In this document: in pieces, positions 82 to 16,751 of the stretch
Numbering within the stretch: position 1 is the stretch's first letter
Layout of the letters: each line of letters starts with the position of its first letter
Source of the DNA: a virus
IMG/VR virus record: IMGVR_UViG_3300020179_000230
Coordinates: 1-20,279 of that record
DNA: 20,279 nucleotides
Direction: 5' to 3' (one strand)
The notes under the pieces: model-generated
What the model was told of the DNA's origin: nothing
Database searches by the model: none
The model's input: only the letters and a program-made list of their open reading frames with translations
Program-made: the position numbers and the translations under genes

Positions 82-834
82 ATGGATAACGCAATTGAAT
101 ACGGACAACAACAATTTAATTTACCTCATGATGTGGTGAAATTACCATCAAAAGGTATTTTTTATACCCCTAAAAAAGAATCATTAAAGGTTGGTTATTT
201 AACCGCCGCTGACGAAAACATTTTAATGTCACAAAATAATAACAAAGAAGGTTTGATTAAAACTTTATTAAGAAATAAAATTTATGAACCAGGGTTTGAT
301 ATTAACCAAATGATTAATGTTGATATACAAGCCATACTTATCTTTTTAAGAAACACTGCTTTTGGTCCTGAATATAATTTTATTGTAAAAGACCCAAAAA
401 CATCAATAGAATTTGAAACCACTGTATTAATAGATGAGTTAAATTACATTGAATCTAAAGTTAAACCAGACGAAGACGGTCTTTATACTTTATTATTACC
501 AAAAACACAAAAAACGGTTAGATTAAAACTTTTGAATATAGGAGAAGAAACAGAAATTGAAAGTTTATCAGATAAATACCCAAAAGGTATGGTTGCTCCT
601 ATTGTTACAAAAAGATTAGAAAAACAAATAGTTGAACTTGAGGGTAATAGAGATAAAGGTGTAATAGCCACATTTGTAAATCAAATGCCAATAATGGATT
701 CAAAAGAAATTAAAAATTTTCTATTATTGTGCGAACCAAAAATTGATTTAAATAAAAAAATTATAGCCCCGTCTGGAGAAGAAGTCACTGTAATGGTGAA
801 CTTTGGGGTTGAATTTTTTCGGCCTTTCTTCTAA
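82..834 (+). CDS. T4 gp26-like baseplate hub assembly protein / tail assembly chaperone
   Basis: The 250-residue product resembles the T4_baseplate family (T4 gp26). It has the N-terminal LPSKGIFY motif (21-28), the YLTAADENIL segment (39-48), and a D..A.L.FLRNTAFG stretch (about 81-95). In T4, gp26 takes part in building the central hub of the baseplate and is probably not a major virion component. T4 gp26 is about 208 residues, so this protein is slightly longer. It has no membrane segment or signal peptide. Its position just before a probable tape measure gene is where tail assembly chaperones are usually found. The last codons read TTT TTT CGG CCT TTC TTC TAA. A +1 slip onto TTC at 818-820 would bypass the stop and fuse it to the 40-residue ORF downstream. 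The family call rests on motif recall, not on a search. Confidence 0.7.
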   Translation: MDNAIEYGQQQFNLPHDVVKLPSKGIFYTPKKESLKVGYLTAADENILMSQNNNKEGLIKTLLRNKIYEPGFDINQMINVDIQAILIFLRNTAFGPEYNFIVKDPKTSIEFETTVLIDELNYIESKVKPDEDGLYTLLLPKTQKTVRLKLLNIGEETEIESLSDKYPKGMVAPIVTKRLEKQIVELEGNRDKGVIATFVNQMPIMDSKEIKNFLLLCEPKIDLNKKIIAPSGEEVTVMVNFGVEFFRPFF

Positions 835-850
835 TCATAAAAAAAATTTA

Positions 851-973
851 ATGGATGAGTTCTATTACTTGGTAAAATACGCTCACTTTTCATACAATGA
901 CTTATTAAATGTACCAACATACGAAAGAAAATACTACGTCGATAAGTTATTAGCAGAATATGAAAAAAAATAA
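851..973 (+). CDS. Small 40-residue protein, possible frameshift extension of the gp26-like protein
   Basis: This ORF encodes a 40-residue protein beginning MDEFYYLVKYAHFSY and ending in a charged stretch (LLAEYEKK). Its F/Y-rich start and the YNDLLNVPTYERKYYVDKLL segment look like the short second products found next to tail assembly chaperone genes. Its frame is +1 relative to the gp26-like gene and stays open upstream from position 800, so it could be made as a 296-residue fusion. It could also start independently at ATG 851, where the upstream sequence is A-rich without a Shine-Dalgarno site. The residue pattern and its place before the tape measure gene support it as a real gene despite its size. 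The chaperone role is inferred. Confidence 0.6.
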   Translation: MDEFYYLVKYAHFSYNDLLNVPTYERKYYVDKLLAEYEKK

Positions 974-1003: not shown

Positions 1004-2938
1004 ATGTGGTTATTTTTTCAAGACGCTACTGATGAATTCGGAACAGGAGGAATTGATATTCAAGCCGATCCAAAAAATGGTATTCTCAAGTCCTTAATCA
1101 ACGCAATGGAAAACGGTATAAAACCAAACGAAACGTTTAGGGTTTTAAGTCAAATGGAAGATAAGGTTAAAGACTTACAAAAAACAATGGGTAGTGGTCT
1201 TGTTTTAGGTGGTGAGGCGTTTAGAGAAAAAGTCGAACAAATATACTTTGAAACCACAGAATTAGGAATACAATTTAAAGACGTAACCGATGTAATGGGG
1301 GGTATGTCTAAAAGTGTCGGTCGTATCATAGATCCCTCAAAAGATGTCGTCCAACAAATGGCAATACTTGGTAAAAATGTTGGAATAGCCTCTGAAGCAA
1401 TGGGACAAATGGTTGGTGAATTTATGAAACTAACATTTTCTCAAGAAAAGAGTGTAGAACTAATTAATAAAATAACAGATTCAGCAAGAAGAAGTGGTGT
1501 AAATGTTAAAGCAACATTAGAGGGAGTCCAAAAAAATCTATCAAAAGTAGACGCTTACGGTTTCAAAAATGGTATTGAAGGTTTAACCAAAATGCAAATT
1601 CAGGCCCAACAACTAAGAACCTCAGTTGAGGAAATTAATGCTGCACAATTAGGTCAAACTTTTTGGGATCCTGAAAAGGCAATTGAAGCGGCAGCAGGTA
1701 TGTCCATGTTAGGTGGTTCTATGTCAAATCTTATGAACCCCTTTCAATTAATGAACATGGGAGCAAACAATGTTGAAAAACTTCAAGAAAGTTTAATAGA
1801 TTTATCTGCATCCGCATTTAAAGTAAATGATGCGACGGGTGAAGTAGAAACAAATTTTGTTGCACAACAAAGATTGAAACAACAATTAGAATCTTTAGGA
1901 AGGGGTGGTGAGTATGAAAAATACATTAATTTAGGTAGGGAGGCATCAAAACAAGCAAAAATAATTGCAGACATTAATAAAAGTGGTTTAGGTACGTTAT
2001 TTGAAGGTGAGGGTAAAACGTTCACGGAAGAAGATAAAAGATTAATAGCATCTCTAAGTGAGGTAAAAGATGGTAAGATAAGTTTAAAAATACCTGGATT
2101 TGATCAAGTTGATAATCTACAAGAAGCACTATCAGGAAATCCTGAAAGAATAAAAGAAGCCTTAGAAAAATATCAAAAAGAGGCCGCAATGTCAGAAAAA
2201 GATATTGCTATGAAAAGTTTGTCAACTGTAGACAACATTAAAAATGATACAACAGTTATATCTCAAACTCTTTTAAGAACTCTTTCTGAAACAGAAAGAA
2301 CTGCAGTTTTACAGACTGTTGGTGGTGTTGCGCAAGAAGGAACTGACAAATTTAAAACTGTCACACAAACAGCAGCTACTGGTGTTAAATCAACAGTATT
2401 AGACCCTAATTTTTGGAGAGATATTTTTACATCAAATCCACCAACACCCGCAGAAGAAGATAAATTTTTTGGTGATGGTACTAAAAGATTAAGTACAGGT
2501 AAAGGTGAAATGTTTAGTTTTATTAAAGAAGATCAAGCATTATTTGCTCCCGATTTAGATGAAAAACTAGGCGTTCTTAAATCAGCATATCTAAAATTAA
2601 CAAAGATACGACCAAATTTAGAAACCGATGTGACTTTAACTCCTCAAGAATTCCAACAACCTGAAGTTAATTTCAAACAACCTGAAATAAAAACTCTTGA
2701 TTTTTCTAAAATTATGGATTCTCTTGGGTTGTCTACTGCGCAGATTGAATCTATGTCTAATAAAGAGACTGTCCAAAAAATAGAAGGTTCGGGATCTGTT
2801 AATATCAATGTTAATATTTCAAGTAGTGGCGATTTAGCTAGTTCATTGATTTCAGATAGAAGATTTAAAGACGATTTAGAAACAGAAATATTAAACACAT
2901 TAAAAAACAAAGACTTATTAATGGTTAAAAAACCATGA
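1004..2938 (+). CDS. Probable tail tape measure protein
   Basis: The 644-residue product is largely predicted helical. It is rich in Q, K, E and A, has almost no cysteine or long hydrophobic runs, and carries Gly/Met-rich stretches such as GGSMSNLMNPFQLMNMG (about 236-252). The C-terminus has a VNINVNISSSGD segment followed by a short charged helix ending LLMVKKP. Size, composition and position between a gp26-like gene and baseplate genes fit a tape measure protein, which sets tail length and is ejected with the DNA. T4 gp29 is 590 residues. At the usual ~1.5 Å per residue, 644 residues predict a tail of roughly 97 nm. An in-frame stop at 989-991 rules out a longer N-terminus. No coiled-coil repeat period was computed, and another elongated tail protein remains possible. 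Confidence 0.65.
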   Translation: MWLFFQDATDEFGTGGIDIQADPKNGILKSLINAMENGIKPNETFRVLSQMEDKVKDLQKTMGSGLVLGGEAFREKVEQIYFETTELGIQFKDVTDVMGGMSKSVGRIIDPSKDVVQQMAILGKNVGIASEAMGQMVGEFMKLTFSQEKSVELINKITDSARRSGVNVKATLEGVQKNLSKVDAYGFKNGIEGLTKMQIQAQQLRTSVEEINAAQLGQTFWDPEKAIEAAAGMSMLGGSMSNLMNPFQLMNMGANNVEKLQESLIDLSASAFKVNDATGEVETNFVAQQRLKQQLESLGRGGEYEKYINLGREASKQAKIIADINKSGLGTLFEGEGKTFTEEDKRLIASLSEVKDGKISLKIPGFDQVDNLQEALSGNPERIKEALEKYQKEAAMSEKDIAMKSLSTVDNIKNDTTVISQTLLRTLSETERTAVLQTVGGVAQEGTDKFKTVTQTAATGVKSTVLDPNFWRDIFTSNPPTPAEEDKFFGDGTKRLSTGKGEMFSFIKEDQALFAPDLDEKLGVLKSAYLKLTKIRPNLETDVTLTPQEFQQPEVNFKQPEIKTLDFSKIMDSLGLSTAQIESMSNKETVQKIEGSGSVNINVNISSSGDLASSLISDRRFKDDLETEILNTLKNKDLLMVKKP

Positions 2939-2966: not shown

Positions 2967-5900
2967 ATGGAAAGCCCATTATCATTCAATTCGTCAGAAA
3001 ACTTTAGAAAGAAATTACTTCTTAGAAACCTTAGACCATATGGTGTTGAGGGTTCTTATCAAGGAAATGACTCTAAAAAAAACACAGAAGTTTCAATTAT
3101 TGATTATTCAGTAATTGATTCACCACCTATTGAGGTTGAGGCTAACATACAAGAACCAAAATTAATAGGGTTAAATAAATATACACCATTAGATTCTGAT
3201 TTTGGTAATATAGTTAATATAAATAAAAATTTAGGAACACAAACTAATTTTGGTAATTATACATTTACCCAGAGTTTTGGGTCTCAATTAGAAATTTTTG
3301 GTAAAAGAACAGAAAAAGAACAATTAGTAAAAAATCAGTATTCTAAAGATGTCGGTGAAAATCAAAACACAGTAAACCCAAATTTAAATAAACAAACAAA
3401 AGCTAACGAAGGTAACTACGGATATCAAGATAGTGTTAATAGCGACTTAGAAAAAAAAGGAAATGAACTTGAAAAGTTTTTAAGGGTTTTAAACAAATAC
3501 GGACCAACTAAGATGGCTAATGGTTTTGGAGATACGGTAACATTTGACTTAGAATCTATTGGCACAAGAGTAGGTGAATATACATACGTATCGAATGGAC
3601 CTGAAATTTCGGCAGAACAATCTAGAACTAATGCTTACACTTCAAATTTCTTTGGACCAAGTGGTGGTTTTGGGTTCGAAGTTGAGCCAAATGTAAACAA
3701 ACAAACAAAACCTAACTCTGGACCTTTCTTATACCCAACTTCAGAACCAAATAGAACAACAGAAAGATCTCAAAAAATGGCGTATCTTTCAAATGTTTAT
3801 GGACCTGAGGATATACCAAACGGATATGGGGTTTTTATTGACCCAAATTTGAATTTCCAAACAAGATCAAATCAAGGAGAATTTGATTATGAGTCATCTT
3901 CACCAAATTTAACAACATTACAGTCACAAACATTTTTTTATGGAAAAAATAAATATAATAGTGGTGAAGGAACATTTGATGCTTTAACTGTTGAAGATTA
4001 TTCTTTTGAAAATTTAAATGACCCTTACTATAATAGTGACACAACATTTATTTTTATTCCATCTGATTATAGCCCAATAAATATTTTATCACAAGATGAT
4101 TTAAATAATGTTAGAGGGTCTGAAGGTTCATTGAGTCAAGATTCTGATTTGGCAAAATTAGGGGCAAAACAATTACAAAAAGAATTTAAGGCAAGAGTTG
4201 CTTTTGAATTATTACAACAAACTTTGGGTAAAACATTAGGGACAACTACCACTGTAAATCAAAATAGTGGTGCAATATCGGCCGAATTGAAACCTGACCC
4301 ATTTGATGCGTTGGGTGTTATTACTAATAATATACCATTGATACAAAGGGATTTTAAAATAACATCTGTTGGTGGTATTATTGGTGAAGCACTTAGCTTC
4401 ACATCTAGATTAGCAGGACTTTATTCCCCATATTCTTTGATACCAGGTGAATATTTTGATTACCCACAAAAAAATATTTTGTCTCAAGCGTTAACAAACC
4501 CAATAGGAGGGTTAGCGTCACTTGCAACTAATTTAGCAACGAAAATATTAACACCAAATATAGATACAGGATCTGAAACATTATTGGCAAATACATCAAA
4601 CGCAACAAAAAGTTTATTGTTCGATATGTTATATTATAATGAATATAGACCACAGTACAAACTTAGTTCCGTTCTCAGTCCAAACTTAACGGCACCTGGT
4701 GGTAATTTTTATATTGGTAAAGGTAAAAACTACATGAGGGATTTAGTGAGTCCGAAAACGGATTTACCAAGAGATAACAAAGGTAACCCTGTTGTTGGCC
4801 CTGTTTATAGTTATGGTAGAATAGGAAAAGACTATGAAGGTAATTCAGTAAACCAAAAATTATTTGGATTAAACGCGAGAGCTTTTTATGACAAAGTAGG
4901 GATACAAGGTGGTTTTACATGGACAGCTAAAAAGAATTATATTGATCCAGGAAGATTAGTTGGACCTAAAAATGAAAAGACAGGTAAGTTACAAAACTTT
5001 TCAATTGATAGTGTTTTTGGTGCTGGATTTCAAGCAACATATAATCAAACAAAATCTTCAGATACAAAACTCACACCGGGATCGATTTTAGACGTAACAC
5101 AAAGATTGGTTGAGGCGGGTAGCGTTGGTTCAGCAAGTAAACTTGAACATGTTGGAAATGCAATTAATCAAGTATCTAAAGTATTTTTTGATGGATATCA
5201 AGAAGTTACTAAAGGATCAAGAGCAAGAAGATTTTTAACACCTACATCATTAGGACAAAGTGGAAAGCAAGTTAAAGATGTAGTTGGTTATGAATATTGT
5301 AGATTATTCACTAAAGATAGACCTTACTATTCGTTTAATGAATTACAAAAAACTGACAGAAATATAAGAAAATATAACAGTTCAGTTTTAGATAATACAT
5401 ATAATTTAAATATCGCCCCGATGGGTGGAGTTGACTCAACAAACATACAATTTATTGATGGTAAATTGAGGGCAAAAAAATATATGTTTTCTTTAGAAAA
5501 TTTAGCATGGAAAACATCAAGTAGAGTTGGTTATAGAGTCGAGGATTTACCTGCATGCGAAATAGGACCTAATGGTGGAAGGATAATGTGGTTTCCTCCT
5601 TATGATCTTACGTTTGATGACTCGTCTACTGCGAATTGGACAGATACCGCGTTTCTTGGTAGAACAGAGCCTGTTTATACCTACACAAAAACATCAAGAA
5701 AAGGTAATATTAGTTTTAAAATTGTAGTGGATCACCCGTCCGTTTTAAATGTTTTAGTTAATAAAGAATTAGAAAAAACTGAAGAGTCTTTGGCAACAAA
5801 AGTAATTGACTCTTTATTTGCTGGATGTTTAAAATATGATTTAGTAGATCTACTAAAAAAATACCCCATGTTCAGTTATTCTGACATATATGAAGTTGTT

Positions 5901-8799: not shown

Positions 8800-9117
8800 A
8801 TGGATTTTTATAGAAGATATGAAAAATTTTTAATTAATGGTACACAGACTGTAGTACCATATGTTAATATTGGGTCAAGGCCGTCTGATCAAAAATATGT
8901 CTACAGAGCAGGTCAAAGTAGGTTAGATAAAATTAGTTATGAAAAATACGGTAGCCCCTATTTTGGTTGGTTAATACAATTAGCAAACCCAATTTACGGT
9001 GGTTTAGAATCTAATATACCTGATGGAACCATAATTATTATACCTTTTCCACTTATAGGTGCGTTACAAGACTACAAAAATGCAATAGATACACATATTT
9101 TTTATTATGGCAGATAG
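8800..9117 (+). CDS. LysM/gp53-like baseplate wedge protein
   Basis: The 105-residue product has a LysM-like fold pattern at residues ~33-84. It starts YVYRAGQSRLDKISYEKYG, continues SPYFGWLIQLANP, and ends with a strand rich in I and P (IPDGTIIIIPFP). The YGSPYFGWLI..AN segment is characteristic of phage gp53-type baseplate wedge proteins, where the domain joins wedge parts and does not cut peptidoglycan. T4 gp53 is about 196 residues, so this is a minimal version. The gene starts 4 nt after the giant protein's stop codon. Its own stop overlaps the next gene by 11 bp, suggesting translational coupling within one baseplate operon. No catalytic residues are expected or seen. Confidence 0.75.
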   Translation: MDFYRRYEKFLINGTQTVVPYVNIGSRPSDQKYVYRAGQSRLDKISYEKYGSPYFGWLIQLANPIYGGLESNIPDGTIIIIPFPLIGALQDYKNAIDTHIFYYGR

Positions 9118-12100
9118 TTTAAACCAAAAATCTATATATGTAGAAACCGATTATGATAATATCATATTGATCGACCCCAATAAAATTGTTGTTGACAACA
9201 AAGTTAAAGATAGGTTGGTTGATCATGAAGAATTAGTTTTTTATGCAAATTTAGAAACAAAAGTAATTCCTAGAACTAAACTAGCTATCGGAGAGTCCTT
9301 TGACAGTCCGGTAATCAACTCAAGTATTGCGAGTTTGGTCGGCAAATCAGATGGAACAAGTATAAATTTTCTACAACCAATAGGAAAAAAAAAATATTTT
9401 GACACGTCTTGGTCAGATCAATTAACAGGAAGTGGCGCCAGAGAAGGTAAGGGTTTCAATCAAATAAGAGAATCTAAACAAAATAAAGACGGTAAAAGTG
9501 TTTTTGTAAGAGACGTTTCAAATTATAACGACACACAAACATTGGGGATTAAAGACATAACCATAGACATATCAGGAATAAATTCAACACAGGTTAAAAT
9601 AAATCTAGTGGATGTTCAAGGTAGGACATTATTTGAACAAGGAGAAAAATCGATATATTCTGTTTTTTTTAATTTACCGTACCCACTATTTTATTTAACA
9701 CTTAAAGGTTATTATGGTAAGGCAATTAAATACGCATTAAATCTTACTAAATTTAATGCTAGTTTTGATCAAAGAACGGGTAATTATGATATATCTTTAA
9801 CGTTGATTGGTAGAAATACTGGACTGTTAACAGATACTCTTTTGACTTATGCTAAGACGGCACCAAAAATGACACCTACAACATTACAACAACAATCAAC
9901 CGTTAGTAATGCGCCGGGACAACAATTTAGTAATTTAGAAATATTAGATTCTTCTATTGGTGAACAAACAATGTATGAAGTTTACAAAATTTATAAATCT
10001 AAAGGTTTAATAGATAAAGATTTTCCAGAAATATCAATAGATGAGTTTATCGATAGTGCCGATACGTTTGTGACAAAAATGCAAGATGGTATTAAACAAG
10101 GTGATTTTGCTGTCCTAAGTGACGTATCAAAATTTAGAGGAGTATTAACTGATATAAAAAACAAAGTATTTACATTATCTAAAAATAAATTTTTAGATTT
10201 AAATAACTACATTTTTTACAAAGGTCAGATACATTATACTTTCAAAAACACGGTCGATTATACGAAAAGAAAGGAATTAATTTCAGGTATCGAAACAGAA
10301 ATTAATGATGCCAATAAAAATTTAAAGGCCAACAAATCCTTTGGCGACAATGCGGAATACGTTGTTGCTGGAAACACATATAGAGAAGGTATAGTAGTAA
10401 CACTAGACCCAAAAGACGTTATAGAACAAATAGCTATAAGCTCATTTACGGATCTTGATTTGGAAAACACTTTAACAAAAAGATTAGGTAGAACACCAAC
10501 ACCTGACGAGGTTTCCAAATTTAAGATTCAAACATTACAAGATATAGAAATTTTCAGTAAAAAAATAGACGACAATACTGGAGATTTAGTAGATGACACA
10601 CCAACGTTTTTTAGGTTTGGTGAAGTGGATTTTGGTACAAATACTTATCTCGCCAATAGTTTTTTAGACGATATTAACAACGGTTTAAATAAGATAAAAA
10701 CAAGAGAAGAAAAAATTGAGCAACAATTTACAGATTTACTCGCTAAAAAAATAACATCAGAAGACGGTGGTTTAGGGTTTAGTCCGACAATAAGAAATAT
10801 TTTTGCAATATTATTGGCTGGTGTGGATACATTTTATCGTTTGATGGATAAAACACATAAATTAGCTTGGGATCAAAGAACAAACCCAAAAAGATTACTA
10901 TCGATAATACCTGCTGATAAAAATTTTGGAATAGATTCTAAAAACGTAATTAATGGTACTGGTCAGTTAAACGATAAAAATGTTGTTTATCCGTGGCCAA
11001 CATACTTTACTAAGGAAAGAGACCCTAAAGACAAGAGCGGTAGAGAAAAATATATACTAAATTATGTTGCCGATCCTAAATATGTGGATCTAACTAATGG
11101 GTATGATTATACGACATGGCCGGAAGTTGCATTTTTAGAAGATTATATAAATGCTCAAACAAGAAGATCTCAAACTAATAAAAGAAAAAAATATAATAAC
11201 AATAAAAATGCATCACCATTTGGGTCTTGTAATACTTTAGATTTTCCATTTGAGGTTTTACCATATGAAAATGTTTCTGAAGTTTCTTTTTTTTATGAAA
11301 TTTATGAAAGACTTTATAGTTTAGTTAATTATACAAACTTATACAGAGGAAATTATAAAACAAATCAGGTTGATAAGTTTTTATCAGATTTAGAGGCTAA
11401 AAATATTATTTTTGGTTCAGAGGATAGTTTATTACTTAAAGAAAAACTTAAAAATTTTAAATTTAATTTACAACAATTTGAATCATTTTTAGAAAATACT
11501 GATAAAAACACTTGGGAGGTTAGTAAAAGGGATTTGTTTGTGACTGATTATGTTGAAAACTCAATAAAAAAAGATTATGGAATTTACGCTCTTTCAGAAA
11601 TAGATGGTAGGTCAATATCTTTGGAAAATTCAAGTCCATTAATTAAAGAATTTGATAAATACTTAAAGAGTACTGAACACAATGTCTATAATTTTTTAGA
11701 CACAGAACCTGTTTCATTAAATAATGACTACACCGACATTGGAAAAAGTTTAATATTTTTAGACGATAAAAAAACACTTGCTAGATTAAACGAATCAGAT
11801 ACGGTTAAGAACATATCAATGATTAGTTGGTATGATAATAAAAGATTCGCAAATCAAAATTTAAAAATTTTAACAAGAGATAATACTGATAAAATCATAG
11901 ACTTAACTAGTTTACAACAATATTATGACGTTGACGTACCTACAGAGGTGATCGGGAATACTGTAATTACTCAATACCCAAGTACTAAATGGAATGTTAC
12001 CGAACAATATTTAGGATATGAACCAACTACATATTCAGGTTTGGTTAGTACGATTCAGTCTACTAGTTTGTTAAACACACCATATTTTATAAATTCAATT

Positions 12101-15100
12101 TTAAATGGGGTTGAAAAAGAAAAAAATAAAGAGTCAAACCCATATGTGCCTACCGGATTTCTTTTTCTCTATTCTTTACCTGTCGAGGACATATCCAATC
12201 CAGCATTATATGATATTGACAAAGAAGAGACTTTAGGAAATTTTTATGGACAAGTAAGAAAATTCTCAGCAATACACCAAGTACCTTATTCATTTATATT
12301 AAAAATGGGTGCTTTTTGGCATAGATATAAAACCTATCATACAACAGGTGTCGATATATTAGATGAATGTTGGAAAGACTTTGACTACAAAAAATATTAT
12401 GATCCAATAAATAATGACTTAACTAAAGTTTATAAAATAAAAACTTATGATGGGAACGATGAGGACTTTACAGCATATAGAAATATAGTAGAAGTTATTA
12501 ACATACCTAACGAAGAGGATGAAGAAGAATCAGGAACTAGTGGTACTAGCGGTTCTTCAGGTACTAGCGGTTCTTCAGGTACTAGCGGTTCTTCAGGTAC
12601 TAGCGGTTCTTCAGGTACTAGCGGTTCTTCAGGTACTAGCGGTTCTTCAGGTACTAGCGGTTCTTCAGGAACTAGCGGTTCTTCAGGAACTAGCGGTTCT
12701 TCAGGAACTAGCGGTTCTTCGGGTGGAGGAAATGGATATACCACCATATATAAAGAATTTGACATATTTAATTATGGATTTTATCCAAAATTAATAAACG
12801 ACTTTCAGTACTTTTTTACAAAAAAAGATTTAATAAAAAATTACACAGAACAAGAAATAAAAAAAATATTTGAAAAAGGTAAAATAAAACTAGGTAACAA
12901 TACTAATTCTAGTTTTTATATGCCAACAAGTGGAGACATAAACAATGAAAATAGATCAATAATAAATAATTCTTATTTTGAATATCTTATTTTTGATAAA
13001 GATTCATTAATTGACCAATCTAATAAAGTCTATATGATGATCCCATCATGTGGAGGTATACCTTTTAATCAGGCAAATTACGAATGTTTTACAATAGATA
13101 AAAAATTAAATCAAGAAGTAAAAGATAATAGTTCCATATATAATGGTACAATAAGAAGTTTTTGGGGATGCTCTCAATTTGGTTATTTTGATAATAATTC
13201 TTTAAAAAAACCAAGCATTTTTGAAGAACTTAATTATTTGGGTACCGATTACCAATCTGTAACACAAATTTTTTCTGCGTTTGACAAATCAAAATTAGAT
13301 GATTTTGAATCATTATTTTTACAATTCTGTGAACCAAACCCAATCACGACAAATTCAATTATACAAAACGAAAATACAATTGAAAAAACAAGAAATTCAG
13401 GACTTAAACAATTAAAATTTGTTTTAAAGGATTTATTTACCATTAAAGAAAGTGAACTAACACTTTCAAACCAACAAAATAATGATGGGGAACTTTTGGC
13501 ACAAAAACAAGTATTTAACCTAACTCAAAAAATAAAAACGTTTTCTAAATATGATTTAATACTAAAAATAGGTAATTCCGGACAATTTGATAGAAGACTC
13601 TTTGGTAGTCTAGCAAATAATACCTCATTAAAACCACAAAATCCAATAGTACCGATTGGAAATGGTTATAAAAAAGGAACACTTCCAGGTGACGGAACAT
13701 CTGTAAATCTATTGCAAAGTAAAGTATCAAATAAAGATGCATGGGAATCATTATATTTAAATGTTGGTTTTTATGTTAAAGACATTTCTTTTGAAGGCGT
13801 TGAATACTCAACATATACCGATACAGGATCAACAATTTTTGACTTTTTTATTGATAACAATATTGAGTTTAATAAAAGTAACGTTGAGGTTTATTCTAAA
13901 TTAATAAAAATATATTCAACACAAAAAAATAAAAAACTCCTTAATAATGAAACTTATGGTAACACTGAGTTTATAAGTGAGTTAGAAACTTTTTTATTAG
14001 AAAAAAATAAAATATTAGATGATAGTGTTGTAGAAGTTTTTACTTATTTAAATAAAAATTTACCGACAGTTACTGTAAATAATAAAAACACAAAATCAAC
14101 ATTAGATGGTAACGTATCTAAATTAAGTATATATAATACATTTCAAGCATTTAACGACAAATGGATTGCTGGGAGTGATTTAACAACAAGAACAATTTTT
14201 GAAGACTTTTTGTTTCATGATCCCGCAAACCACGATATTGGTGATGAGTTACAGGTTGATGTTTTAGCAATAAAAGATATGTTAAAAAATAGCGATCCTG
14301 CCACAGACATACTTTTAATAATTGGTTCTATTTTAAAATCGGCTGGAGATTTACTTTTCTTTTCAATGCCGGCGTACATTAACTTTTATGGTATTAATAA
14401 CGCTACAAAAACACCAAACCCACAGAATATTGACGTACCAAATTCACTATTTGGTACTTGGACAAACGTTAATTATTTAGACTCAAGGCCCAAATTTTTG
14501 TGTGTTTATGTCGGTAAAGAATCTGAAAGACCCGTTTCTAAAGAAAATGAATTCATGTTATATGCCGACGATAGTTTTGATTTAAGAAACCCAACAACCA
14601 ACCCAAATAGAATTGAAGTAGATAAGCAAAATATATCACTTTCTAATAAAGTGGTTGCCTTTAATGTAGATTTTGGTATAAGAAATCAAAATATGTTTAC
14701 AAACATAAATGTAAATATGAATGATAAAAAACCAACTAATGCAACTTTTTTAGTAAACGATCAATTAGCAAATGGTGTTAATGGAGATAAAATAGCACAA
14801 CAAACAACATCATTATATAGTCTTTATAAGTCCATGAGTTATTCTTGTACTGTAGAATCTTTAGGTAATGTTATGATACAACCACTCATGTATTTTAATT
14901 TAAGACACGTTCCATTATTTTATGGGCCTTATTACATTTACAAAGTAAAACATACAATAAGGGAGGGAGAATTTAAAACAAGTTTTGATGGTTCTAGGAT
15001 GCCAAAATATGCTTTACCACAACCAGATAGTTTAGGAACATTTATAAAAATAAATTATTTAGAAAATTTTAAATCTGAAATATTAAAGGCGGGTAGTGAC

Positions 15101-15799
15101 ACGGTTGTCGAAGAAACCACACCGACAATTTTAGATCCAGAAAGAGCAGCTGAAAGAGAAAATTTAGTACCAAACGATAACGAACAATGTCAAATAAAAA
15201 TTATTGAAAAATATAAAACATTAGAAGAAGACCCTATTAGACGAGGTACTATGACGTTTGAAGATTTAAAAAATTTAATAAACGAAAACGTATCTTTAGA
15301 TAGGTCAATAAAAACACTTTTATTTACTATTGTCATAACTAGAACAACAAATTTAGTTCAAAATGAGTTAATACAAATATTAAATAATAACTTAACTGAA
15401 GTTAGGGCAACAAACGAATGGCCCGATAGATCCGATCTAAACAAGTGGGTTTGTTATAATAATGGAGTTGAGGCTGTACCATATTTTTCTTTTGATCAAC
15501 TTAAAGACTCGATATTATTAACAAGAGATTGGTTCAAAAATGTATTACCTATTATATCAGAATTGAACGCATTAAATAAACAAGTTAATTTAACTCAAGA
15601 AGAAGTTGAACAAATAACATTATCACAAGCAATAATTTCATATTGGGACACAATTTTAGGTTTTGGACCACCACCATTAAGTGCAAACGAAATAAAAACA
15701 ATTATAGATACAAACTTACAAAATGAGAGGTTACCAAAAGTAGCCTTTGACAATTATAAATATAACGTTAAAAGGGCTCAAAAGTATTTTCCATTTTAA
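9107..15799 (+). CDS. Giant candidate baseplate hub protein with GTSGSS linker
   Basis: The 2230-residue protein has a conserved-looking beta domain at residues ~143-245 (GIKDITIDISG, VDVQGRTLFEQGE, FFNLPYPLFYLTLKGYYGKAI). Near the C-terminus (~1853-1966) a block reads VAFNVDFGIRNQNMF, VESLGNVMIQPLMYF and VPLFYGPYYIYKVKHTI, then a FKTSFDG segment. The latter resembles the hub fold of gp27/gpD/VgrG-type proteins (GPYYI..V.H.I....F.T), so a baseplate hub role is inferred. About 1600 residues separate the blocks, including a pure Gly/Ser/Thr linker (~1143-1205). The start at 9107 overlaps the gp53-like gene by 11 bp. No enzyme motif such as a lysozyme domain was seen. The size is far above typical hub proteins (T4 gp27 is 391), so this may combine hub and wedge or fibre functions. 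Confidence 0.55.
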   Translation: MADSLNQKSIYVETDYDNIILIDPNKIVVDNKVKDRLVDHEELVFYANLETKVIPRTKLAIGESFDSPVINSSIASLVGKSDGTSINFLQPIGKKKYFDTSWSDQLTGSGAREGKGFNQIRESKQNKDGKSVFVRDVSNYNDTQTLGIKDITIDISGINSTQVKINLVDVQGRTLFEQGEKSIYSVFFNLPYPLFYLTLKGYYGKAIKYALNLTKFNASFDQRTGNYDISLTLIGRNTGLLTDTLLTYAKTAPKMTPTTLQQQSTVSNAPGQQFSNLEILDSSIGEQTMYEVYKIYKSKGLIDKDFPEISIDEFIDSADTFVTKMQDGIKQGDFAVLSDVSKFRGVLTDIKNKVFTLSKNKFLDLNNYIFYKGQIHYTFKNTVDYTKRKELISGIETEINDANKNLKANKSFGDNAEYVVAGNTYREGIVVTLDPKDVIEQIAISSFTDLDLENTLTKRLGRTPTPDEVSKFKIQTLQDIEIFSKKIDDNTGDLVDDTPTFFRFGEVDFGTNTYLANSFLDDINNGLNKIKTREEKIEQQFTDLLAKKITSEDGGLGFSPTIRNIFAILLAGVDTFYRLMDKTHKLAWDQRTNPKRLLSIIPADKNFGIDSKNVINGTGQLNDKNVVYPWPTYFTKERDPKDKSGREKYILNYVADPKYVDLTNGYDYTTWPEVAFLEDYINAQTRRSQTNKRKKYNNNKNASPFGSCNTLDFPFEVLPYENVSEVSFFYEIYERLYSLVNYTNLYRGNYKTNQVDKFLSDLEAKNIIFGSEDSLLLKEKLKNFKFNLQQFESFLENTDKNTWEVSKRDLFVTDYVENSIKKDYGIYALSEIDGRSISLENSSPLIKEFDKYLKSTEHNVYNFLDTEPVSLNNDYTDIGKSLIFLDDKKTLARLNESDTVKNISMISWYDNKRFANQNLKILTRDNTDKIIDLTSLQQYYDVDVPTEVIGNTVITQYPSTKWNVTEQYLGYEPTTYSGLVSTIQSTSLLNTPYFINSILNGVEKEKNKESNPYVPTGFLFLYSLPVEDISNPALYDIDKEETLGNFYGQVRKFSAIHQVPYSFILKMGAFWHRYKTYHTTGVDILDECWKDFDYKKYYDPINNDLTKVYKIKTYDGNDEDFTAYRNIVEVINIPNEEDEEESGTSGTSGSSGTSGSSGTSGSSGTSGSSGTSGSSGTSGSSGTSGSSGTSGSSGTSGSSGTSGSSGGGNGYTTIYKEFDIFNYGFYPKLINDFQYFFTKKDLIKNYTEQEIKKIFEKGKIKLGNNTNSSFYMPTSGDINNENRSIINNSYFEYLIFDKDSLIDQSNKVYMMIPSCGGIPFNQANYECFTIDKKLNQEVKDNSSIYNGTIRSFWGCSQFGYFDNNSLKKPSIFEELNYLGTDYQSVTQIFSAFDKSKLDDFESLFLQFCEPNPITTNSIIQNENTIEKTRNSGLKQLKFVLKDLFTIKESELTLSNQQNNDGELLAQKQVFNLTQKIKTFSKYDLILKIGNSGQFDRRLFGSLANNTSLKPQNPIVPIGNGYKKGTLPGDGTSVNLLQSKVSNKDAWESLYLNVGFYVKDISFEGVEYSTYTDTGSTIFDFFIDNNIEFNKSNVEVYSKLIKIYSTQKNKKLLNNETYGNTEFISELETFLLEKNKILDDSVVEVFTYLNKNLPTVTVNNKNTKSTLDGNVSKLSIYNTFQAFNDKWIAGSDLTTRTIFEDFLFHDPANHDIGDELQVDVLAIKDMLKNSDPATDILLIIGSILKSAGDLLFFSMPAYINFYGINNATKTPNPQNIDVPNSLFGTWTNVNYLDSRPKFLCVYVGKESERPVSKENEFMLYADDSFDLRNPTTNPNRIEVDKQNISLSNKVVAFNVDFGIRNQNMFTNINVNMNDKKPTNATFLVNDQLANGVNGDKIAQQTTSLYSLYKSMSYSCTVESLGNVMIQPLMYFNLRHVPLFYGPYYIYKVKHTIREGEFKTSFDGSRMPKYALPQPDSLGTFIKINYLENFKSEILKAGSDTVVEETTPTILDPERAAERENLVPNDNEQCQIKIIEKYKTLEEDPIRRGTMTFEDLKNLINENVSLDRSIKTLLFTIVITRTTNLVQNELIQILNNNLTEVRATNEWPDRSDLNKWVCYNNGVEAVPYFSFDQLKDSILLTRDWFKNVLPIISELNALNKQVNLTQEEVEQITLSQAIISYWDTILGFGPPPLSANEIKTIIDTNLQNERLPKVAFDNYKYNVKRAQKYFPF
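12533..12721 (+). repeat. 18-bp tandem repeat encoding (GTSGSS)10
   Basis: Ten head-to-tail copies of GGTACTAGCGGTTCTTCA run from 12542 to 12721, after a partial unit (12533-12541). The first seven carry GGTACT and the last three GGAACT. The final copy ends TCG instead of TCA. The array stays in frame and encodes Gly-Thr-Ser-Gly-Ser-Ser repeats at protein residues ~1143-1205, probably a flexible linker. An acidic run (EEDEEE) comes just before it and a Gly-rich exit (GGGNG) just after. The near identity of the copies points to recent expansion by slippage or recombination. Confidence 0.97.
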
Positions 15800-16073: not shown

Positions 16074-16751
16074 ATGATTTCAGAAAAAAAGATTTTAGAA
16101 GAATTAAGAAGATTTAATGAAATAAATAAATATATTCTTAATGAACAAGAACCACCCCCACCCCCACCACCAGCAGGAGATGCGGGAGCAGTGCCGCCAC
16201 CTCCAGCAGGAGATGCGGGTGCACCACCACCCCCACCACCAGCAGGAGATGCGGGAGCACCACCAGCAGGAGGCGCTGAAGAAATCCCTGAGCCTGTTGA
16301 TGTTGCAAATGATCCCGATGTTGAAGAGGTCGATACAGAAGAGAAAAAAGAAGGTGAAGAAGAAACTGAAGAAATCGATATCACTGATTTAATTACCGCA
16401 CAACAAGAAATTAAAGATAAACAAGATACCTTTATGGATGATATGTTTAAGAGATTAGACGATTTACAATCAAAACTTGAAAACATGGATCAAATTATGA
16501 GTAAGATTAGTTCGTTAGAAACTAAATTTGACAGGTACAGAGAAAAAACACCTGAAGAAAGATTAGAACTTAGGTCTTTAGATTCATACCCATACAATCA
16601 AAAACTTACAGACTTTTTTGATGATAAAAAAGTAGATATGGAAAAAACAGGTAAGAATGAATATATTTTAACATCTGACGAGGTTGAAAATTTTTCACCT
16701 AATGAAATTAAAAAAACTTTTAATAGTTACAACAACGAAGAGGAAATGTAA
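16074..16751 (+). CDS. Pro/Ala/Gly-rich coiled-coil protein of unknown function
   Basis: The 225-residue protein has four visible parts. A short amphipathic N-terminus (1-25) is followed by a PPPP..AGDAGA tract (27-68) made of three to four repeats. Next is a strongly acidic region (69-105), then a likely coiled coil (about 106-158, with the MDDMFKRLDDLQSKLENMDQI heptad pattern). The C-terminal domain (about 165-225) contains SYPYNQKLTDFFDDKK. No enzyme motif is present. The layout suggests an elongated linker or oligomerising virion protein, but I cannot place it in a known family. It is the last gene before the terminator at 16759, so it closes the structural module. The G+C-rich repeat tract is unlike the AT-rich surroundings. 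Confidence 0.7.
   Translation: MISEKKILEELRRFNEINKYILNEQEPPPPPPPAGDAGAVPPPPAGDAGAPPPPPPAGDAGAPPAGGAEEIPEPVDVANDPDVEEVDTEEKKEGEEETEEIDITDLITAQQEIKDKQDTFMDDMFKRLDDLQSKLENMDQIMSKISSLETKFDRYREKTPEERLELRSLDSYPYNQKLTDFFDDKKVDMEKTGKNEYILTSDEVENFSPNEIKKTFNSYNNEEEM
16170..16276 (+). repeat. G+C-rich in-frame repeat encoding P(n)AGDAGA
   Basis: The core CAGCAGGAGATGCGGG occurs at about 16171, 16204 and 16240, with a partial fourth copy from about 16264. CCACC-rich spacers of variable length separate them (periods 33, 36 and about 24 bp). All are multiples of three, so the frame is kept. The first and third cores are identical over 20 bp. The segment encodes the Pro-rich tract of the coiled-coil protein and stands out as G+C-rich in an AT-rich genome. 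Confidence 0.85.

Follow-up and report, generated by a model that had tools for sequence, protein, structure and literature searches.

A conserved shift site and an upstream RNA hairpin point to programmed +1 frameshifting in the tail assembly chaperone gene of a family of T4-like phages

In the 20,279 nucleotides of viral DNA analysed here (IMG/VR record IMGVR_UViG_3300020179_000230, referred to below as the window) a gp26-like gene overlaps a reading frame in the +1 register. Programmed +1 ribosomal frameshifting very probably explains this overlap, and one gene would thus yield two proteins in a set ratio. The gene ends in GAA TTT TTT CGG CCT TTC TTC TAA (positions 811-834). The +1 frame has a TGA at 797-799, is open from position 800 and stops at 971-973, exactly as the original prediction had described, and the predicted fusion is 296 aa long. 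Comparison with relatives revealed a conserved shift site, an open +1 frame under selection, missing start codons, a covarying hairpin and homology to the gp26 and gp51 proteins of T4. The features are listed in Table 1.

Table 1. Features of the chaperone gene region in the window
Feature	Positions	Strand	Basis
Short-form tail assembly chaperone ORF, 250 aa (gp26-like, 'G'/TAC-N)	82..834	+	phrog_150, PF12322, relatives
Conserved RNA hairpin upstream of the shift site	765..810	+	covariation, RNAalifold, fold of the window
Predicted shift site TTT TTT C GGC	814..823	+	Phe and Arg codon counts in relatives, codon controls
Predicted +1-frame extension, 50 codons + stop, C-terminal 'T' domain resembling the C-terminus of T4 gp51	821..973	+	dN/dS, phrog_150, hhalign
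0-frame TAA, end of short form	832..834	+	0-frame stop 3-6 codons past the Arg codon in all relatives among the matches listed
Tape measure candidate, 644 aa, next gene	1004..2938	+	position only

A first search of IMG/VR returned 17 relatives and a profile search at least 589, and all close relatives inspected retained both the shift site and the open +1 frame. As a guard against bias, IMG/VR was scanned with degenerate patterns permitting alternative codons for FGVEFFR, and a site was counted as a member of the family if the protein upstream of it matched the family HMM. At least 195 distinct members were obtained, which are mutually related and correspond to an effective number of about 80 at 80% identity. 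In all 195 distinct members among the matches listed the gp26-like gene ends in [TTT/TTC] TTT CGN: 171 have TTT and 24 have TTC as the first Phe codon, the second is TTT (195/195) and the codon following it is CGN (195/195). Not one family member turned up in complete scans of IMG/VR for TTT TTC or AGR as alternatives. The +1 frame stays open for 45-65 codons past the site in 187/187 closed members among the matches listed, none being shorter, and the -1 frame ends early in the relatives shown. Because the open +1 frame is kept in every closed relative, the overlap is not a product of chance; this comparison of sequences confirms it as real and far beyond what chance would give. Both the slippery TTT-C and the open frame are therefore found where the original prediction had expected them in related phages, and its proposal that a +1 shift joins the two reading frames into a protein of 296 aa is supported by the relatives.

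The original prediction had further assumed that the ribosome waits at a rare CGG. This codon accounts for 2 of the 183 Arg codons in the coding sequences of the window, one of the two being the codon at 820. In the relatives (211,425 codons) CGG and CGC are the two rarest Arg codons, with 0.4% and 0.3% of the total, and AGA makes up 77% of Arg codons elsewhere. CGG and CGC together nevertheless fill 148 of 189 shift sites among the matches listed, as against 0.7% of Arg codons, and AGA was found at 0 of the same 189 sites although another conserved Arg column of the same gene has AGA in 157 of 189. In 39 of 39 CGG-type genes checked there was a single CGG, located at the shift site. The assumption of a stalling codon thus holds in so far as rare codons predominate, but CGG itself is not obligatory, since CGC and CGT also occur. 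Other controls from the same gene gave similar results among the matches listed: TTC makes up 14-16% of other conserved Phe columns and is never found at the second Phe of the site, and GGG makes up mostly 4-15% of other Gly columns compared with 93% at the site. By these codon counts the site has the slow A-site codon expected of programmed +1 frameshifting.

From these comparisons we infer the following course of events in vivo, in which the efficiency of the shift, the part played by the hairpin and the function as a chaperone are likewise proposed. Most ribosomes would read on to the TAA at 832-834 and produce the short chaperone of 250 aa. A minority would stall when TTT 817-819 occupies the P site and the rare CGG 820-822 the A site, and tRNA-Phe (presumed anticodon GAA) would slip one base forward onto TTC 818-820, which is the better match. 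Reading would then resume with GGC CTT TCT and lead to a long form of 296 aa with a helical gp51-type domain at its end. The hairpin at 765-810 would refold behind the ribosome and promote the forward slip in the manner of the internal Shine-Dalgarno duplex of prfB. If the pair works as lambda G/GT does, the tape measure protein would be coated by the short form, and recruitment of the tail tube protein would fall to the long form. The junction in the window would read ...VEFFGLSSNHK, giving the tryptic junction peptide IIAPSGEEVTVMVNFGVEFFGLSSNHK, and the unshifted 0-frame product would yield IIAPSGEEVTVMVNFGVEFFRPFF.

The upstream hairpin was absent from the original prediction. Its outer stem is formed by 765-771 and 804-810 and its inner stem by 783-788 and 796-801, of which only 785-788 and 796-799 pair in the window; 6 nt separate the 3' arm from the P codon and the loop comprises 32 nt. 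The [Ala/Thr]-Pro codons about 40 nt upstream and the GGG GTN preceding the site vary little at their synonymous positions. Among the matches listed, 174 members have both CCCC and GGGG, 13 have neither and 2 have only one of them, and in most of the exceptions C-G pairs are replaced by A-U and G-U at free third positions. Ranked by mutual information, 765-810, 768-807 and four inner-stem pairs were within the top 13 of about 19,000, and RNAalifold recovered the outer stem unaided. The covariation score (118 sequences) was 0.290; shuffled controls scored 0.185 ± 0.007 and slid controls no more than 0.129. With a tree made from the remainder of the protein, the count of two-sided branch changes that preserve the pair was 38, as against 0-10 in slid controls. 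The structure is not perfect: 68% of the cells of the inner stem are paired, and mismatches are tolerated in five relatives (L192, L313, L323, L342 and L343). The computed upstream folds of the distant +1 phages immuto, Mel-JY01, RM378 and SP-15 contained no clearly shared hairpin.

Two further roles for sequences within the hairpin were considered and rejected. The loop contains GGAGAA (775-780, Gly-Glu codons), which is synonymously conserved (GGA in 175/182 and GAA in 145/150 among the matches listed) and complementary to TTCTTC at 826-831, pairing in 88% of cells. A pseudoknot between the two is not supported, as there were no two-sided changes and the pairing is broken where TTC is replaced by TAC. 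The GGGG at 805-808 might be taken for an internal Shine-Dalgarno sequence of the prfB type, which precedes the P codon by about 3 nt and pairs to 16S rRNA. GGGG lies 8 nt from the P codon, however, and it changes to GGTG along with its CCCC partner. Since, in addition, no Shine-Dalgarno motif was found before 11 starts of the window, this role was dismissed.

It has been reported that engineered upstream hairpins, by refolding, mimic the internal Shine-Dalgarno duplex and stimulate +1 frameshifting at a hungry codon on 70S ribosomes (PMC6321510). The hairpin described here resembles them in its location just upstream of the site and in acting, as proposed, with a hungry codon; it differs in its spacing of 6 nt to the P codon and its loop of 32 nt, and whereas those were designed constructs it would be a natural, conserved case. 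Judging from covariation and position, we think it somewhat probable that the hairpin stimulates the +1 shift. A more far-reaching idea, to which we give even chances, is that a natural hairpin refolding behind the ribosome drives the +1 shift in place of the duplex between Shine-Dalgarno and anti-Shine-Dalgarno sequences, in hosts (probably Bacteroidota) that do not rely on this duplex for initiation; the lack of Shine-Dalgarno motifs at the 11 window starts fits a Bacteroidota host. It is possible, if on balance unlikely, that shift and hairpin are both real and the hairpin serves another role, for example in mRNA stability or in translational control of the chaperone gene. The whole hairpin is contained in coding sequence and no role has been assigned to the conserved GGAGAA of its loop, as such a function would allow, but the hairpin keeps a constant position just before the site and belongs to the same class as the upstream duplexes published as +1 stimulators (PMC6321510).

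The downstream ORF of 40 residues, to which the original prediction had joined the gp26-like gene, does appear to be joined to it by the shift; judged by its sequence it is not an independent gene but a gp51-type C-terminal domain whose start codon is usually absent. In the core of this T domain dN/dS was 0.121 in the +1 frame versus 1.17 and 1.25 in the other two frames, and changes by codon position numbered 1249, 938 and 3069. As an alternative, the ORF might be translated on its own from the ATG at 851. This ATG is present in the window, several relatives keep it, and separate ORFs are annotated in the records of immuto, SP-15 and cyanophages. Among the matches listed, however, the stretch from the site to the T core lacks ATG, GTG and TTG alike in 137 of 187 members, and in 112 of 187 the +1 ORF contains no ATG ahead of the core. 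Many members thus could not express the T domain independently, and a separate start was rejected. The +1 frame is moreover always open over the overlap, the L-S residues after the site are conserved and the synonymous sites upstream are frozen, all of which makes two separate genes very unlikely. Twenty members among the matches listed carry an in-frame TAG in the +1 frame just 5' of the site, which confines the shift to about 20 nt, and 15 of these 20 are without any start codon.

Because +1 and -2 shifts reach the same frame, the direction of the slip has to be considered as well. A -2 slip like that of phage Mu, whose tail chaperone gene uses this shift (PMC5009743), would move the tRNA from TTT 817-819 back onto 815-817 and produce EFFFG instead of EFFG, the junction reading ...VEFFFGLSSNHK (...EFFFGLSSNHK). 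Such re-pairing is possible in the sequence of the window itself and is permitted by TTTTTT in 171 of the 195 members among the matches listed, but it does not hold across the family: in the 24 members with TTC TTT C among the matches listed, and in GXN1 with the same arrangement, a -2 slip would set tRNA-Phe on TCT. Slippage on their first Phe codon, from TTC to TCT, is equally impossible, and a move from TTT to TTC one base forward gives a perfect match. The -2 slip was rejected on these grounds and can be given very little credence, the more so since TTT is invariably followed by a C, which is of use to a +1 slip only, and the hungry codon and the upstream hairpin also fit +1. The invariant TTT-C (195/195 among the matches listed) is what re-pairing of the P-site tRNA one base forward needs, and agrees with the slip from TTT 817-819 to TTC 818-820 in the original prediction. 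That the fusion arises by slippage of RNA polymerase on the homopolymer T6 and not on the ribosome is extremely improbable, since six T are short for polymerase slippage, the run is broken by TTC TTT in 24 members among the matches listed, and enrichment of rare codons is a feature of translation.

The 0-frame protein matched phrog_150 over positions 9-233 of 282 (E=4.5e-12), placing it in this family, and PF12322 with E=8.6e-4 and 19.5 bits, under the gathering score of 24.5. T4 gp26 and gp51 both match PF12322 over its full length and cover 14-235 and 13-280 of phrog_150; the two are paralogues, gp51 having an extra C-terminal domain. The +1 fusion extended the phrog_150 match to 9-274 in the window and 9-279 in one relative (L014), and 39 of 39 fusions tested matched this profile. 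The T domain of the family aligned to gp51 and -1-type T domains alone with a probability of 77% (E 2e-5) in hhalign, compared with E values of 0.3-0.8 for column-shuffled controls. By profile coverage and hhalign the long form would thus carry a gp51-type C-terminal domain. AlphaFold2 modelled the fusion with a pLDDT of 81 and the T domain as a helical hairpin (249-266/279-295). The model matched T4-like 'baseplate hub' proteins in BFVD by Foldseek; sequence and fold searches of the PDB returned nothing significant.

An ORF of at least 150 aa, mostly of 550-750 aa, starts at most 60 nt from the +1 stop in 174 of 187 relatives among the matches listed, and a tape measure gene is annotated at the same place in immuto, LIS04 and SP-15. 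The ORF of the window at this place gave no profile match. By position, this agrees with the chaperone pair in front of the tape measure gene of the original prediction. A short form and a predicted shifted long form, an overlapping open frame and a conserved slippery site are all present as in a G/GT pair. Since the fusion matches the gp26/gp51 family nearly end to end, homology and gene order suggest that the gp26-like gene and its T tail represent a short/long tail assembly chaperone pair of the lambda G/GT type.

No match of the window to known phages was obtained by megablast and a scan of bacterial genomes found no relative of it. Elsewhere in the window, a 2230-aa protein (ORF 9107-15799) contains a tandem SGTSGS repeat at about 12500-12760, the reverse strand of which is an open (EEPLVP)n ORF, and a 225-aa protein (16074-16751) has a Pro/Ala/Gly-rich PPPPPAGDAGAP repeat close to its N-terminus.

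Outside the family a +1 overlap with a comparable tail was found in Flavobacterium phage immuto, Microcystis phage Mel-JY01, SP-15, LIS04, GXN1 and RM378, and the T tails of Mel-JY01, immuto, LIS04 and SP-15 had profile support. The sites were AGC TTT CTT TGG in immuto, AAC TTT TTT TGG in Mel-JY01, TTT TTT TGG in RM378, GAA TTT TTT CAC in SP-15, TTT TTT AGT in LIS04 and AAC TTT CTA in LR756508; because they differ from those of the family the exact slip is less clear there. Short genes annotated as 'hypothetical protein' in immuto (L019, 4863-4973) and SP-15 (L023, 4740-4859) probably represent T domains that belong to long forms of the +1 type. The T domain lies in the -1 frame in Synechococcus phage Sf-FS3, Bellamy, S-H34, metaG-MbCM1, VH7D, phiAS5, Rhizobium phage IC12, RL38J1, Y68, Vibrio phage K369, Mooltan and Cygsa01. 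The domain in metaG-MbCM1 (L112, about 2175-2385) follows gp26 after AGT TTT TTC GGA TAG, lacks an ATG and is unannotated. LR756511 (L025, about 4690-4960), a relative of the +1 phages, encodes its T domain in the -1 register downstream of GCG GGT TTT TTC TTC CCA and may, on this sequence, shift -1. An in-frame long form was found in T4, Aeromonas phage 31, Krischvirus and RB43.

A 2016 review describes conservation of the G-T shift 'except T4' and the use of -1, -2 and +1 shifts by tail chaperones (PMC5009743). The original prediction had known of no shift in the gp26 family. Passages in two papers that cite and credit Vladimirov et al. 2022 state, however, that some T4-like phages possess both a short gene and a long one formed by fusion (PMC10885494) and that T4-like TAC-N genes contain poly-T -1 slippery sites (PMC12846349), so that, as far as these passages go, the chaperone identity, the two-gene form and the -1 shift have already been published. 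Neither a +1 shift in the gp26/gp51 family nor the upstream hairpin was described in the literature searched, an absence which is weak evidence; both appear to be new.

T4 gp26 and gp51 belong to the same protein family as the products of the window gene (PF12322, phrog_150), and the C-terminal domain of gp51 corresponds to the +1 tail; T4, however, has its short and long forms as two genes whereas the window family would make them from one gene by frameshifting. The -1 gp26 (TAC-N) genes of cyanophages, Schizotequatrovirus, Ackermannviridae and Pootjesviridae share the gene, its place, the poly-T at the FF codons and the T domain, but their site is T TTT TTC/G or similar, in contrast to the +1 site TTT TTT CGN or TTC TTT CGN with its hairpin. 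Lambda G/GT, P2 E/E' and Mu (-2) differ in protein family, direction and slippery site, and we know of no conserved upstream hairpin in these systems. The prfB (RF2) gene shares the P-site slip one base forward, the slow A-site codon and the upstream duplex; there the A-site codon is a stop codon and the duplex a nearby one between mRNA and anti-Shine-Dalgarno sequence, whereas the window has a sense codon, an intramolecular hairpin and starts without a Shine-Dalgarno motif.

The family with the +1 chaperone gene is very large and made up of uncultured T4-like phages, and annotators currently miss their predicted long form. The covarying hairpin is a candidate natural example of a stimulator hitherto demonstrated with designed RNAs. 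One protein family would thus have taken three routes to the same ratio of short and long chaperone: a +1 shift in the window family, apparently a -1 shift in other relatives of T4, and gene duplication in T4 itself.
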